NCBI GenBank assembly: GCA_021776685.1 | Contig: JAJFFJ010000110.1 | Location: forward strand, 1-36,284 | Length of the DNA stretch: 36,284 nt | Direction: 5' to 3' | From: Alphaproteobacteria bacterium | GTDB lineage: Bacteria > Pseudomonadota > Alphaproteobacteria > Bin65 | Shown here: positions 20,321-25,186 of the stretch, piece after piece | How the letters are laid out: each line of letters starts with the position of its first letter | Position numbering within the stretch: the first letter of the stretch is position 1 | Notes under the pieces: model-generated | What the model saw: only the letters and a program-made list of their open reading frames with translations | Told to the model about the DNA's origin: nothing | Database searches by the model: none | Translations under genes and position numbers: made by a program

Positions 20321-21952
20321 ATGAAAGGGCTGTGCGGGGTGACGCACGATGCCAGCAGCCGATCGACCGACCTCGAGTTGGCCGCGGAGGAAACGACGTT
20401 CGCAGATGCGGCCGACGAATCCTCGACCCTGCCTGACTGGCAGGGCAGCCTTGCCGGCCCCGATAAAATTGGCGGCGTTCCAGCCTGGCCGGCGGCTGTA
20501 AACCGCAGCACCTCTGCTGGAGACCAGTCCGCGGATGGTGATGGTGCGAGCAGCGACCCGGCATCCTCCCGTGATGTGCAGGTGCGGTTAATCAGTCTCG
20601 CCTATTCCAATATGTTGATTGGCCTGTGCACGGATCTGGTTTGCGTCGTCACCATGTCCTGGATGATCGTGGGCGTGGTGGAGGCCGGCGCCCTCTCCAT
20701 CTGGGTCGGGGCAGCCGCGGCGCAAATGATCGTGCGCAGCGGCATCTGGTGTGCCTGGCGTTTGGCACCGTCCGCCAGACGCAGACGGCAAATCTGGCGA
20801 TACCTGTTTATCGGCATGTCGGTTTCCATGGCGGTGCTGTGGGCTGTTGCGGGCACGTTGTTCATGCACGCAATTCCGCCGGGCCAGCAGATCTTCCTGA
20901 TCGCCCTGTTGTTGGGCGTCAGCGCCGCGCTGATGGTTGCGGCTGCGCCAGAGCCCTGTGCGGCCCACAGCAGTTTCGTCGTGATCGGCCTGCCCGTGGC
21001 TGCGGGCTTTCTGACTTCCGGCCAACCGCATTTTCAGGCGCTGGGGATTCTGTGCATCGTCTACACCACCTTCCTGTCGGTCGTGGCCCGGAACTATCAC
21101 GGCCTGCTGCTCCGCTCGGTTACGGCGGAAGTGGAGAAGACCGCGCTCGCGGGCCACTATCAGGCGGCCCGTCTTCGCGCCGAGAAGGCGAACGACGCCA
21201 AATCGCGTTTTCTGGCCAACATGAGCCACGAATTGCGGACACCGCTGAACGCCATCAACGGATTCTCTGAAATGATGAAAGCGGGGATGGTCAAACCCGC
21301 AACTGTTGAGCGCTATCAGAGCTACGCAGAGCTGATCCACAGAAGCGGCACCCATCTGCTGGATTTGATCAATGACGTGCTGGATCTGGCCAAGGCGGAA
21401 GCCGGGCAGCATGTTTTGCATGAAGAAACGGTGGACATCGCCGCGCTGGCCCGCGAATGCGTGGACGTCGTGCAGCCCGCAGCGGATGAAGGCGGCGTTC
21501 TGCTGGTCGACGAAATCCAGACCGGAAGTGTGGGTTCATCGCAGCTCGGCGCCTTGGAGGTGTGGGTCGACCGGCGCAAGATGCGTCAGATCCTGCTCAA
21601 TCTGTTGTCCAACGCCATAAAGTTCACCCCCAATGGCGGCACCGTGGGTGTCTCGTGGATCAATTCCGATGACGGTGGATTGGTTCTCTATGTGCGTGAC
21701 ACCGGTATGGGCATGACGCGCGACCAGCTGGCAGAGGCAATGAAGCCCTTTATCCAGGTCGATGAAGGTTACGAAAAGCGTTACCAGGGCACTGGACTGG
21801 GGTTGCCGCTCAGCAAGACCCTGGTGGAACTGCACGGCGGCACATTGCGGCTGGAAAGCGAGCGGGGCCGCGGCACCATAGCCACGGTCTGGCTGCCCGA
21901 GGAGCGCACTACGGTCCCGGACTTGACCACGGATTGCGACGCCCAGGCCTAG
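20321..21952 (+). CDS. Membrane-bound sensor histidine kinase
   Basis: A 543-residue histidine kinase. Residues 1-85 are a polar, acidic, probably disordered tail. About 90-258 hold roughly six hydrophobic segments and no large periplasmic loop, so the signal is probably sensed in the membrane. A short coiled coil leads to HisKA with the phospho-acceptor His303 in MSHELRTPLNAINGFSEM. The HATPase domain shows the N box LLSNAIKFTPNGG, G1 DTGMGM and G2 GTGLGL. No response regulator is adjacent. It sits between rph and rdgB, which are adjacent in many relatives, so it is probably an insertion. The membrane region resembles PleC/DivJ-like kinases only in general layout. The start is the ATG at 20321. 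Confidence 0.9.
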   Translation: MKGLCGVTHDASSRSTDLELAAEETTFADAADESSTLPDWQGSLAGPDKIGGVPAWPAAVNRSTSAGDQSADGDGASSDPASSRDVQVRLISLAYSNMLIGLCTDLVCVVTMSWMIVGVVEAGALSIWVGAAAAQMIVRSGIWCAWRLAPSARRRRQIWRYLFIGMSVSMAVLWAVAGTLFMHAIPPGQQIFLIALLLGVSAALMVAAAPEPCAAHSSFVVIGLPVAAGFLTSGQPHFQALGILCIVYTTFLSVVARNYHGLLLRSVTAEVEKTALAGHYQAARLRAEKANDAKSRFLANMSHELRTPLNAINGFSEMMKAGMVKPATVERYQSYAELIHRSGTHLLDLINDVLDLAKAEAGQHVLHEETVDIAALARECVDVVQPAADEGGVLLVDEIQTGSVGSSQLGALEVWVDRRKMRQILLNLLSNAIKFTPNGGTVGVSWINSDDGGLVLYVRDTGMGMTRDQLAEAMKPFIQVDEGYEKRYQGTGLGLPLSKTLVELHGGTLRLESERGRGTIATVWLPEERTTVPDLTTDCDAQA

Positions 21953-22010
21953 ATTCAGACGCCGGCTTGCGGTCGCGCCACGGCGGTGTACAAAGGGCAA
22001 GTCCGCTTTC

Positions 22011-22040
22011 TGGCCAACCACTGGCCAATCCCTTGGCCAA
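22011..22040 (+). repeat. Three TGGCCAA repeats upstream of rdgB
   Basis: TGGCCAA occurs at 22011-22017, 22022-22028 and 22034-22040, spaced 11 and 12 bases apart, about one helical turn, and ends 20 bases before the rdgB start. The core TGGCCA is itself a palindrome. It could be a cluster of protein-binding sites or a chance slippage product. Confidence 0.4.
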
Positions 22041-22060
22041 CTTCCGAAATCGCCCGCCTC

Positions 22061-22660
22061 ATGTCCCGCAAATTTTCATCCGACAGCCTCGTCATCGCCA
22101 GCCACAATCCCGGAAAGGTGCGGGAGATTGCGGAGCTTGTGGCGCCGTTCGGGGTAAGGGTGGCCACTGCCGGCGATCTTGGCCTGCCAGAGCCTGAAGA
22201 AACCGGTGACAGCTTTCGCGCCAACGCAGAATTGAAGGCATTGGCCGCCGCACAGGGCGCGGGTCAGCCGGCCCTTGCAGACGATTCCGGTCTGGTTGTG
22301 CCGGCTCTGGATGGCGCGCCAGGGATCTATTCCGCCCGCTGGGCCGGGCCGGACAAGGACTTCACACTCGCCATGCAGAGGGTGGAGCAGGAACTTGCCG
22401 GCAAGACGGACCGGCGCGCCCACTTCACTTGCGCGCTCAGCCTGGCCTGGCCCGACGGGCATATGGAAACCTTCGAAGGCCAGGTCCATGGCCTGCTGGT
22501 GTGGCCGCCGCAGGGTGACCGGGGATTTGGCTATGACCCGGTTTTCCAGGCCGAGGGTCATCTGATCACCTTTGGCGAGATGGACCCGGCGGCCAAGCAT
22601 GCCATCAGCCACCGGGCAGCGGCATTCCGTCAGCTGATCGACGCCTGCTTCTCCACCTAG
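22061..22660 (+). CDS. rdgB: XTP/dITP pyrophosphatase RdgB (Ham1)
   Basis: A 199-residue nucleotide-pool cleaner that hydrolyses ITP, dITP and XTP to monophosphates, keeping deaminated purines out of DNA and RNA. It has the N-terminal [13 protein letters not shown] (substrate Lys), [13 protein letters not shown], the catalytic [35 protein letters not shown] and the C-terminal [10 protein letters not shown]. The ATG at 22061 is chosen because the conserved strand begins 14 residues later. The frame stays open to 21986, but that part is rich in Trp and Pro and covers the TGGCCAA repeats. Confidence 0.97.
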
Positions 22661-22696
22661 CCCAGCGGCCATAATAGAATTGGCCATAACAGAAAA

Positions 22697-22718
22697 GGCG
22701 GCCCGTCGCCGGGCCGCC
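22697..22718 (-). terminator. Intrinsic terminator between rdgB and the secreted metalloprotease-like gene
   Basis: GGCGGCCCG and CGGGCCGCC form a perfect nine-pair stem with a TCGC loop. On the minus strand it is followed by TTTTCT, so it should end leftward transcription from the gene at 22745. On the plus strand it lies 36 bases after the rdgB stop and may also help stop that transcript. This is the clearest terminator in the window. Confidence 0.8.
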
Positions 22719-22744
22719 CCTTCAATGTGTATCCCAGTTGAACT

Positions 22745-23317
22745 TTAGTGGCGGTAGGGATTGGATGGCCGCTGGTTGTTGTCGCCATAGCGGGCCTTGC
22801 CGCGCTGCGCGTAGGCTTGAAGGCAGCGCATCACCAACTTGCCGCGTACCCGGCCGGACGGATGCTCCGGATCCTCGTTCAGCTTCGAGAGATCGCGCAG
22901 GATGGTCGCCAGCCGTTTACGGGTCAGCAGGCGCCGGTTCCACATCTCGCGGATGGCGTAGCAATCGGCGGCAAGCTCGCGCCGCTTCTGCTCCCGGTTA
23001 TAGCCGGCGTGGCGCACCCGGGGCTTGGTGTGACCCAGCACATGGTGACCGCATTCGTGGAAAAAGGTGAAGATCACGGTCCCGCGGCCGGTCGCAAACC
23101 TGCCGGTGTAGGCAGGGTTGAAAACGATGATCGGCTCGCCTTCGATTGTCCGCTGGGCAAAGGCGATGGTCTTGAAGTAGCGCGAGACCACCACGTGGGC
23201 GCGTTTGCCATTCTGCATGTTGCAGGTCAGCTGGGTGCTGGCCGAGGCGTTGCCCGCGGCGGTGAGGGTGACGGCAGCCAGGGTGGCAGCCGCACCAAGA
23301 GTGAGTTTTTTGAACAT
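22745..23317 (-). CDS. Small secreted HExxH protein, putative zinc metallopeptidase
   Basis: A 190-residue exported protein. Residues 1-27 form a Sec signal peptide (FKKLTLGAAATLAAV, ending ASA). The mature part contains FTFFHECGHHVLGH, an HExxH zinc-binding signature at His87-His91. About 23 residues later comes RRELAADCYAI, whose Glu114 and Asp118 resemble the third-ligand region of gluzincin peptidases (ExxxD). Four Cys (32, 89, 119, 165) could form two disulfides in the periplasm. I cannot name a family; the motif is general, and a peptidase role is inferred. The start ATG at 23315-23317 has AGGAGCG upstream. The adjacent leftward gene at 23358 encodes a diverged paralogue with the motif broken. 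It ends at a clear terminator. Confidence 0.85.
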   Translation of the reverse strand: MFKKLTLGAAATLAAVTLTAAGNASASTQLTCNMQNGKRAHVVVSRYFKTIAFAQRTIEGEPIIVFNPAYTGRFATGRGTVIFTFFHECGHHVLGHTKPRVRHAGYNREQKRRELAADCYAIREMWNRRLLTRKRLATILRDLSKLNEDPEHPSGRVRGKLVMRCLQAYAQRGKARYGDNNQRPSNPYRH

Positions 23318-23357
23318 GTCGTGTCGCTCCTGAATTCGGATGTTGCTCTGGCCGGGT

Positions 23358-23846
23358 CTAGCTGCGGCCGCCGCGGGGGATGTGGCGGGCCACCTTGCGG
23401 GCGCAGGACAGCACATACTTGCCGCGCGCCTGACCGGTGTAGCGGTAGACCGACTTGATGATCTGGTTGGCCGTCGCCACGTTGAGCAGCTTGCGGCGGG
23501 CCATATGCTGGATCGCCCAGCAGTCAGCTTGCGCCTCGTGGCGAATGTTGCGCTTGTCCGGATGACGCAGCCACAGGTGGGCGCATTTCCGGTAGAAGGC
23601 GAAGACCAGAGTGGGCATGCCCACTTTCTTCAGCATCTTGCCGTTCAGCACGATCACCGGATGACGCCGGTGGGTGCGGATCAGGATGGCTGCTGGGCCG
23701 ATCGAGGTGTTGATCAGGGTCATGACGCGGCGGCCCTGGCTGTCGCTGCAGTTGAGGATTTTCCTGAGCTGCGGGTTGGCAGAGGCGCTGCTGGCGCCGA
23801 CCGCCGTGGCAACTGCCGCCGCCGCAATTAGGGTTCGAATGAACAT
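23358..23846 (-). CDS. Secreted paralogue of the HExxH protein with degenerate zinc motif
   Basis: A 162-residue exported protein with a signal peptide of about 23 residues (IRTLIAAAAVATAVGASSASA). It aligns along its length with the next gene downstream. The shared features are the four Cys (33, 88, 109, 148), the HEAQADCWAIQHMARRKLLN segment matching ELAADCYAIREM, and the C-terminal GQARGKYVLSC matching GRVRGKLVMRC. The HECGH motif reads RKCAH here: the first zinc His is Arg86 and the catalytic Glu is Lys87, while the second His and the later Glu104 and Asp108 are kept. It is therefore unlikely to be an active metallopeptidase. The ATG at 23844-23846 has GGAGCG upstream. It is 40 bases from its partner, so the pair is probably one operon. 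Confidence 0.85.
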   Translation of the reverse strand: MFIRTLIAAAAVATAVGASSASANPQLRKILNCSDSQGRRVMTLINTSIGPAAILIRTHRRHPVIVLNGKMLKKVGMPTLVFAFYRKCAHLWLRHPDKRNIRHEAQADCWAIQHMARRKLLNVATANQIIKSVYRYTGQARGKYVLSCARKVARHIPRGGRS

Positions 23847-23911: not shown

Positions 23912-23927
23912 TGTGACGGTGGTCACG
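23912..23927. promoter_or_regulatory. CRP-like palindrome TGTGA-N6-TCACG
   Basis: The half-sites TGTGA (23912-23916) and TCACG (23923-23927) are separated by six bases, one mismatch from the CRP consensus TGTGA-N6-TCACA. It lies in the divergent region between the secreted paralogue pair and hemW, 66 bases from the former start and 105 bases from the latter. The regulator, if any, is unknown. Confidence 0.35.
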
Positions 23928-24031: not shown

Positions 24032-25186
24032 ATGAGTGACCCTGGCTTCGGCCTCTATATCCACTGGCCCTTCTGCCCGTCGAAATGCCCGTATTGCGAC
24101 TTCAACAGCCATGTGCGCGAACAGGTGCCGGAGCAGGCCTGGCGCGATGCCCTGCTGAAAGATCTGGCGCACGCGGCGACGCTGACGCCAGGGCGCACCG
24201 TCACCAGCATATTCTTCGGCGGCGGCACGCCGTCCCTGATGGCGCCTGAGACGGTGGCCGCGGTGCTGAATGGCGTCATGGCGCTCTGGCCAGTGGACCA
24301 GCAGGCGGAGGTGACCCTGGAAGCAAATCCCGGTACTGCGGATGCCGGCCGTTTTCGCGGTTATCGCAGCGCCGGCGTCAATCGCCTGTCCATCGGCATT
24401 CAGTCATTCGACGACTCTGCACTCAGCTTCCTCGGGCGCATCCATGATGCTGCCGCTGGCCGGCGGGCGCTGGAGATGGCGGCATCCATCTTTGATCGCT
24501 TCAGTTTTGACCTGATCTATGCGCGGCCGGGCCAGAGCCTGGATGACTGGCGGCTCGAGTTACGCCAGGCGCTCGATCTTTCCGCCGGCCATCTCTCGCT
24601 CTATCAGTTGACGATCGAGGAGGGCACGGCTTTCCACACGGCCGCGCGCCTGGGCGAACTGGTCATGCCCGCGGAAAACGCTGTGGCGGATATGTATGAG
24701 GAGACCCAGCGGATCATGGAGAAGGCGGGAATGCCCGCCTACGAGATATCCAACCACGCCGCGCCGGGTCAGGAATCACGCCACAATCTGGTGTATTGGC
24801 GCTACGGCGACTTTGCGGGTGTCGGGCCCGGCGCACACGGCCGCCTGACCCTGCCGGAGGGCCGGCAGGCGACCTATCAGACGCGGCTGCCGGAAGGCTG
24901 GCTGAAGGCCGTGTCAGAGCAGGGCCATGGGATGGCGGAGATGGCTGACGTGGCGACCGAAGAACAGGCGGTCGAATCCCTGATGATGGGCCTGCGATTA
25001 CGAGAAGGTGTGCCGCTCGATCGGATTGAAAAGCTCACCGGCCGGCGTTTCGACCAGCTCGTCGAGCCTGGCCGGTTGGCCGGTCTGGTGGATGGCGGGT
25101 TCCTCACCCTTGATGGCGCGCGCTTGACCGCCACGGCGGCGGGCCGCCAGCGGCTGGATGGCGTGCTGGCGGAACTGCTCGTCTGA
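24032..25186 (+). CDS. hemW: Radical SAM heme chaperone HemW
   Basis: A 384-residue radical-SAM protein related to oxygen-independent coproporphyrinogen oxidase HemN. The cluster motif is complete as Cys15, Cys19 and Cys22 in WPFCPSKCPYCDFNSH. The SAM-binding FFGGGTPSLM, the EANPGT strand, NRLSIGIQSFDD and the SLYQLTIEEGT segment all fit HemW. HemW binds and inserts heme into respiratory proteins and lacks HemN's oxidase activity. The start is the ATG at 24032 with AAGG upstream. In many relatives it lies right after rdgB; here two minus-strand genes intervene. Confidence 0.96.
   Translation: MSDPGFGLYIHWPFCPSKCPYCDFNSHVREQVPEQAWRDALLKDLAHAATLTPGRTVTSIFFGGGTPSLMAPETVAAVLNGVMALWPVDQQAEVTLEANPGTADAGRFRGYRSAGVNRLSIGIQSFDDSALSFLGRIHDAAAGRRALEMAASIFDRFSFDLIYARPGQSLDDWRLELRQALDLSAGHLSLYQLTIEEGTAFHTAARLGELVMPAENAVADMYEETQRIMEKAGMPAYEISNHAAPGQESRHNLVYWRYGDFAGVGPGAHGRLTLPEGRQATYQTRLPEGWLKAVSEQGHGMAEMADVATEEQAVESLMMGLRLREGVPLDRIEKLTGRRFDQLVEPGRLAGLVDGGFLTLDGARLTATAAGRQRLDGVLAELLV

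Follow-up and report, generated by a model that had tools for sequence, protein, structure and literature searches.

Two neighboring genes encode proteins of one family, and only one of them has the residues expected for catalysis, which raises the question of whether the dead copy is decaying, has a task of its own or is kept as a partner of the live one. The locus lies in a stretch of 36,284 nucleotides (hereafter the window). There, an earlier note had described two adjacent exported paralogs at 22745-23846, and we find both open reading frames (ORFs) at this place, with signal-like N termini and with 30% identity between the two proteins (52 of 176 columns, 65.5 bits, E = 1e-18 in a two-sequence BLASTP comparison). 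The genes and their surroundings are:

23358..23846, minus strand: gene B, pseudopeptidase with RKCAH, 162 amino acids, first of the pair (ORF and translation)
22745..23317, minus strand: gene A, HECGH peptidase-like, 190 amino acids, second of the pair (ORF and translation)
22692..22723, minus strand: terminator-like hairpin with TTTT, 3' of A and before the convergent rdgB (folding energy)
21986..22660, plus strand: rdgB (Ham1 family), slot-marking neighbor (Pfam Ham1p_like, 204.8 bits)
24032..25186, plus strand: hemW (radical SAM and HemN_C by Pfam), slot-marking neighbor that served to find the slot in relatives

Organization of the locus

The pair sits between rdgB, which is convergent to A, and hemW, which is divergent from B, and would be transcribed in the order B then A, with a gap of 40 nt. 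A Shine-Dalgarno-like AGGAG or GGAG lies ahead of the ATG of both genes, which are probably cotranscribed. Both proteins have an N-terminal Sec-type signal sequence, assigned by eye, and are presumably exported. With cleavage sites set by eye, the mature proteins are both very basic (pI of 10.8 and 11.6), which does not favor a pairing of A and B based on charge. As for the claim that the pair has its own terminator, folding reveals a GC-rich hairpin with its TTTT after A, at −29.4 kcal/mol and z = −5.25, an energy reached by 0 of 200 shuffles. A simple terminator scanner reported none across the stretch containing this hairpin, possibly owing to G-T pairs that take up the T run. Just upstream of rdgB, at 20321-21952, we also observe a histidine kinase gene (HisKA, HATPase_c) whose product has a hydrophobic region in its N-terminal half, as judged by eye.

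B lacks the catalytic residues and keeps most other conserved positions

The motifs compared between the two proteins are:

23577..23591, minus strand: RKCAH of B, residues 86-90, in the HExxH place, second His kept (sequence and 19-member alignment)
23523..23537, minus strand: EAQAD of B, residues 104-108, ExxxD third-ligand motif, kept (sequence and alignment)
23045..23059, minus strand: HECGH of A, residues 87-91 (sequence and alignment A5)
22964..22978, minus strand: ELAAD of A, residues 114-118, ExxxD motif (sequence and alignment A5)

In alignment A5, which comprises 19 family members with 17 live rows and is numbered by A, H87, E88 and H91 are present in 17 of 17 live rows, and so are E114 and D118. 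A carries the complete HExxH motif and B (RKCAH) does not, while the downstream ExxxD Glu is found in both (ELAAD in A, EAQAD in B). These are the substitutions that the earlier note had read from the two proteins, with the second His and the later Glu and Asp present in both. What it called an E/D-rich helix is indeed a helix in both (residues 108-127 in the AlphaFold2 model of A, 101-117 in that of B), although it is better named a gluzincin ExxxD helix. A has exactly four Cys (32, 89, 119 and 165), all with equivalents in B (33, 88, 109 and 148), as had been noticed before. The tail GxxRGKxVxxC is likewise present in both, and only its G..R.....C is general across the wider family.

Sixteen columns of the alignment have one residue in at least 14 of the 17 live rows, and B keeps 12 of them: the four Cys, N67, H91, E114, A117, D118, A121, G155 and R158. 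It deviates at H87, E88, P68 and column 129, the last of which is altered in A too. The view that B retains everything but the chemistry thus holds to a large extent, with the loss confined largely to catalytic residues and not reflecting general decay. Judged by its residues, coding constraint and predicted fold, B has the makeup of a pseudoenzyme, with catalytic residues lost and the fold kept. In another member of the family (L023, 4782-5444), HECGH is kept, and Ser and Val replace Cys119 and Cys165; the joint loss of these two hints at a Cys119-Cys165 disulfide.

Signs of coding constraint on B

B and A have nearly the same coding score (0.36 and 0.35 bits per codon, against a shuffle mean of −0.52). 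The GC content of B at the three codon positions (0.59, 0.49 and 0.86) resembles that of most neighboring genes. As a neutral reference, A was mutated by random substitution in sets of 2,000 copies each at 70, 55, 45 and 30% identity to the start, and the difference between GC3 and GC2 in B (0.37) is larger than the maximum in any of the four sets (0.36, 0.35, 0.35 and 0.29). Copies with no stop and four Cys together numbered 72, 7, 1 and 0 of 2,000, respectively. For B, the set at 55% is the more appropriate reference, since A and B have both changed since their split; in this set, 129 of 2,000 copies had no stop, 122 had four Cys and 7 had both, and the corresponding numbers in the 30% set were 36, 6 and 0. 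The simulation is lenient, because it uses substitutions only and leaves out indels. B has been under coding constraint for most of its history, and a very recent loss of function is still compatible with these results. Frameshifts or random changes in homologs of B, of the kind expected of a decaying pseudogene, had been named as a refutation of the earlier reading; in B itself, the frame is intact.

A second dead-live pair in the same genome

The genome of the window (G000) is a draft of 158 contigs, in which a search gave two further copies of the family, both on contig C154 (locus L036):

C154 996-1520: dead2, upstream of live2 (ORF)
C154 1508-2071: live2, downstream of dead2, HECAH

The two genes overlap by 13 nt and have the same dead-first, live-second order as B and A, such that one genome carries two pairs of this order on separate contigs. 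dead2 reads SVCEL at the HECxH place and, in the alignment, has lost H87, E88, H91 and E114, while the four Cys, N67, A117, D118, A121, G155 and R158 are kept. Coding scores are 0.16 bits per codon for dead2 and 0.18 for live2. Both dead copies have Gly at Pro68, which is Pro in 14 of the 17 live rows, a hint only of common origin.

In the phylogenetic trees, joining both dead copies costs 1.07 log units (p-AU = 0.385), joining pair 2 gives p-AU = 0.14 and joining both live copies gives p-AU = 0.411. The best 19-row tree places pair 1 together at 73/36 support and the four copies of the genome together at 75/41, and in a 32-row tree the dead copies are apart or unresolved; the terminal branch of dead2 measures 2.71 changes per column. 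These trees are compatible with either a common or a separate origin of the two dead copies.

The pair on C154 lies between a bactofilin gene and comM. The latter occurs once in G000 and is 76 to 79% identical to its counterpart in seven family genomes, and C154 is therefore not an obvious contaminant. Contamination is thus unsupported by comM, yet the C154 bactofilin shares only 26 to 34% identity with those of the family, which leaves some doubt.

Distribution and diversity of the family

Once near-identical rows had been merged, our collection comprised 32 members scoring at least 40 bits, of which 30 have HExxH and two lack it. Those two, B and dead2, each lie directly upstream of a live copy; no lone dead copy was found among the 32, several loci of which were viewed with just ~1.5 kb on either side. 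The contig scans were seeded with peptide patterns built around HEC[AG]H and ADC and so favor live copies (14 loci from 56 pattern matches in genome_contigs, 8 loci from 34 in viral_contigs). Profile surveys of whole genomes are independent of HExxH and covered the best 8 or 9 candidates per genome, except for the family survey. They gave matches in 5 of 385 genomes of the class, 2 of 11 of the family, 6 of 387 in a second and stricter pass over the class, and 11 of 398 of the phylum, five of the last only at E = 3.6e-5 to 4.6e-4; these genome sets overlap. The order survey drew on the 11 genomes of the family survey, and another survey, centered on G017, covered one genome. With B as the query, 3 of 61 genomes had matches, and with A 5 of 61, two of them set aside at E = 0.006 to 0.009: one of these (L013) is an M48 protein, and at the other (L012) the largest ORF is, by eye, an unrelated receptor-like one on the other strand.

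Matches below 40 bits were left out of the 32, namely L031 and L032 (found again as L098 and L099), which read HECAH and HECGH; L097 (HECAH) was also left out, as were L048 to L052, which look M48-type or like other HExxH proteins, with L049 to L051 confirmed as M48. One of the two matching genomes of the family, G001, carries a copy that is the same ORF as L015 (uncultured Alphaproteobacteria bacterium, isolate Biocath_Alpha_02), and the copy in G017 is the same ORF as L014 (Alphaproteobacteria bacterium, isolate KW1-S21_141). As G001 belongs to the family of the window's genome, the window most likely stems from an alphaproteobacterium too. A Hyphomicrobiales MAG contains three tandem members, all with HECGH (L022, 1341-1838, 1914-2465 and 2532-3050), from which it follows that tandem duplication occurs without a dead member. 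Members with intact HExxH are also found on contigs of the viral collection (L089 to L096); in L089, the member has in its vicinity a gene for a terminase (Terminase_6N, 142.6 bits) and a portal-like one (36.6 bits, cutoff 39.1). No match was found in plasmids with the G001 protein as the query. Overall, these results point to an unnamed family of small, presumably exported, gluzincin-like proteins, mostly from Alphaproteobacteria and from viral-collection contigs.

Mature members, as aligned in A5 and with cleavage set by eye, are either basic (pI 9.1 to 11.8; the four of the window's genome, G001a, G017, L022 and L023) or near neutral (pI 5.9 to 8.2; L016 to L021, L030, L024 and G001b). Beside the live gene in three loci, we observe a gene for a protein of 267 to 283 amino acids that is, by eye, hydrophobic near its N terminus (L016, 4141-4992; L017, 1407-2210; L038, 628-1473). 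The L017 protein is 26% identical to that of L038 (E about 3e-9) and 23% identical to that of L016 (E = 1.6e-5). None of the three had a Pfam match at E = 0.01, and no match was found at any other examined locus, including the window. This neighbor may be a membrane-anchored partner.

The rdgB-hemW slot in related genomes

Whether both genes always co-occur had been proposed as a check, and at the family level they do not: G001 and G017 have one live gene each in the rdgB-hemW slot, and a further live copy (L038) also stands alone in G001. Among the 10 other family genomes, seven have rdgB next to hemW (matches at most ~200 nt apart) and the slot empty, one (G001) has the gene, and in two no rdgB was found on the stretch examined. 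With the window's genome counted, three genomes have the slot filled, two of which carry just one live gene there. The lone live genes of G001, including L038, and of G017 indicate that live members need no dead partner in general.

Predicted fold and family placement

AlphaFold2 models built from 19-row alignments have a mean pLDDT of 82.0 and pTM of 0.76 for A and 86.9 and 0.79 for B, so that the model of B is at least as confident as that of A. Foldseek gave no PDB match at an E value of 0.001 or better for either model. With VIA-align 2, for which a best Z of 7 to 8 is common without a true match according to the tool's own note, the model of A matched BepA at Z = 9.5 in two entries (root mean square deviation of 4.1 across 139 residues in one and 3.3 across 128 in the other) and 3c37 at Z = 8.5. 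The B model matched 3c37 at Z = 9.2 (3.4 over 135 residues), and BepA is absent from its list. Lower ranks hold DPP III, BlaR1, ZMPSTE24/Ste24p and minigluzincins for A and selecase, minigluzincins, DPP III and BlaR1 for B. Given how common such Z scores are, we base the structural argument on the highest-ranking matches in combination with the motif and an M48 profile match: the family profile matched four M48 proteins (probability 96.9, E = 2e-10), which are M48 by Pfam at 42 to 82 bits against a cutoff of 20.3. Both predicted models resemble M48-type gluzincins.

Neither protein reaches a curated cutoff, consistent with the earlier statement that neither could be placed in a named peptidase family. 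No match to Peptidase_M48 (PF01435) was found for A or B up to E = 10, and 2 of 19 family members matched it, with a best E of 0.01. For Peptidase_M78 (PF06114), A scores 19.4 bits against a cutoff of 22 and B has no match. A also has a weak match to Peptidase_S41 (13.8 bits, below any shown curated cutoff), and B matches nothing in Pfam. Other weak matches, none reaching a curated cutoff where one was given, are those to DUF2201_N, a "putative metallopeptidase domain" (5 of 19 members, best E = 0.00028), PHROG 87 "metallo-protease" (11 of 19, with the best E of 8.3e-5 obtained for A), PHROG 1314 "HNH endonuclease" (7 of 19, best E = 0.0024), NCBIfam Lit (4 of 19, best E = 0.00061, with A at 14.1 of the 274 bits needed) and YpfJ-like (2 of 19). 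PADLOC matched A to peptidase_U41 (21 bits, E = 4.9e-5) and capP (E = 0.027), and gave none for B, live2 or dead2. These library matches fit a generic HExxH resemblance, and we do not take them to indicate a defense function. A search of solved structures by sequence returned one match, at chance level, to an aminoaldehyde dehydrogenase (E = 0.97). The literature matches listed for the topics minigluzincin, pseudoprotease, BepA/M48, HECGH/HECAH and M16B/PqqG included none that deals with this family.

Why might the dead copy be kept?

The explanation that we favor, at roughly even odds, is that of an exported peptidase, A, with a retained pseudopeptidase partner, B, that most likely acts on A. 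A would be an exported gluzincin-type zinc metallopeptidase of small size, with HExxH, ExxxD and an M48-like fold, probably periplasmic and held by disulfides; its disulfides, zinc binding and peptidase activity are predicted from the motifs and the model. B would be the product of a duplication inside this family that has since lost its catalytic Glu along with the first zinc ligand and been kept as a folded exported protein whose gene lies directly ahead of A. It would most likely work on A as a noncutting subunit or as a competitor for the dimer surface or substrate of A, thereby setting the activity or specificity of A, which presupposes a putative physical partnership of the two. The occurrence of the same dead-first order twice raises the probability of a partner role, and the live-only state in relatives holds it down. 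The broader proposal of a two-protein envelope protease module in an unnamed exported M48-like family, dead first and live second, set up or kept twice and with the dead protein controlling the live one, is tentative. If true, it would offer a compact system, with live-only relatives and two dead-live pairs in one genome, for how a pseudopeptidase becomes a regulator.

Alternatively, B may be a pseudopeptidase with a task of its own, such as binding a peptide or an envelope target, without involvement of A and with an adjacency that stems from tandem duplication and a common promoter. We consider this possible, if somewhat doubtful. The three live tandem copies in L022, which are a duplication without a dead member, the lone live genes of the relatives with a filled slot, the strongly basic nature of both proteins and the far-diverged dead2, as a protein with a new task might be, all speak for it; the dead-first, live-second order at two places in one genome, however, fits a link between A and B better, and no lone dead copy is seen among the 32 members, with the caveat that the scans favor live copies and that several loci span only ~1.5 kb on either side. 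It is improbable that B still binds metal through His90, Glu104 and perhaps His95, with its chemistry changed and not lost: the equivalents of H91, H96, E114 and D118 are kept in the alignment, but Arg and Lys in place of the first His and the Glu of HExxH put positive charge at the metal place, and H87, E88, H91 and E114 are all missing from dead2 in the alignment. That B has recently become a pseudogene and is being lost is very unlikely as well, even though the catalytic pair is missing and the coding tests are compatible with a very recent loss, because its coding signal equals that of A and lies outside the simulated neutral range, which fails to reproduce B. The full-length frame, signal-like N terminus, Shine-Dalgarno-like site and full set of Cys also argue against decay, as does a second intact dead copy in the genome.

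Comparison with known systems

Pairs of live and dead metallopeptidases are already known in other families, such as TldD/TldE. Like the M48 proteins (BepA/YfgC, 3c37, Ste24p/ZMPSTE24 and the BlaR1 domain), A has HExxH and ExxxD, and M48-type structures top the lists of both models; A and B differ from them in being short, with a signal-like N terminus, four conserved Cys and no M48 match in Pfam. Minigluzincins and selecase (4jiu, 4jix, 4qhf-4qhj) share a small single-domain gluzincin-like fold (Z of 4.6 to 7.1 for B and 4.7 to 5.7 for A) but are archaeal, whereas B and A form a signal-bearing, Cys-containing pair. Minigluzincins and selecase are not known to be exported, nor is IrrE. The likeness of A to Peptidase_M78 and IrrE-PprI lies in its weak profile match and in structural matches to 3dti (Z = 5.2) and 8slm (Z = 4.5); A is below the Pfam cutoff, and IrrE is a DNA damage repair regulator by the title of its PDB entry.

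With respect to paired homologs, M16B heterosubunit peptidases combine one active and one inactive homologous subunit, as A and B would, but belong to a different family with larger subunits. TldD and TldE have HExxxH and are cytosolic. In the accessible text of PMC5810440, only TldD forms a metal site and both proteins are needed, which resembles the B/A pair in that a bacterial pair has its metal site in just one protein; their fold is unrelated, with no similar PDB proteins besides TldE and TldD (PMC5810440). Inactive LytM proteins belong to yet another family and offer a parallel to the role proposed for B, that of a dead envelope homolog acting as a regulator. The hydrolases under their control are not known to be paralogs of these LytM proteins. 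Such dead metallopeptidase homologs of the envelope are kept as regulators of cell-wall hydrolases, according to the accessible part of PMC8416486. The accessible part of a review that covers inactive metallopeptidases contains none of the words M48, M78, gluzincin and TldE, and no such pair appears under those names (PMC11266112).

A CRP-like site upstream of the pair

A CRP-like palindrome had been reported upstream of the pair and is found there:

23912..23927, no strand: CRP-like palindrome TGTGACGGTGGTCACG, 81 nt upstream of the B start, between B and the divergent hemW

It has one mismatch to TGTGA-N6-TCACA. The window holds two such sites against 0.60 expected, and at least two occurred in 12 of 100 shuffles, which is weak on its own. 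The site recurs at nearly the same distance (77 to 83 nt) upstream of the genes of two relatives: with at most one mismatch allowed, the sites lie 81 nt ahead of B, 83 nt ahead of the gene in G017 and 77 nt ahead of that in L017, the last without a mismatch. We examined 17 upstream regions from the 32 members and duplicates. With B included, 3 of the 17 have a site against 0.140 in shuffles, and 1 of 2,000 shuffle sets reached 3. A recount without the region of B is fairer, since the pattern came from the window; it gives 2 of 16 regions against 0.139 expected, reached by 16 of 2,000 shuffle sets. No CRP-like site was found upstream of the C154 pair, of both G001 genes or in the other 11 regions, nor in the seven empty slots. 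The L017 stretch examined has neither rdgB nor hemW, and together with the empty slots without a site this suggests that the CRP-like site is tied to the peptidase gene.
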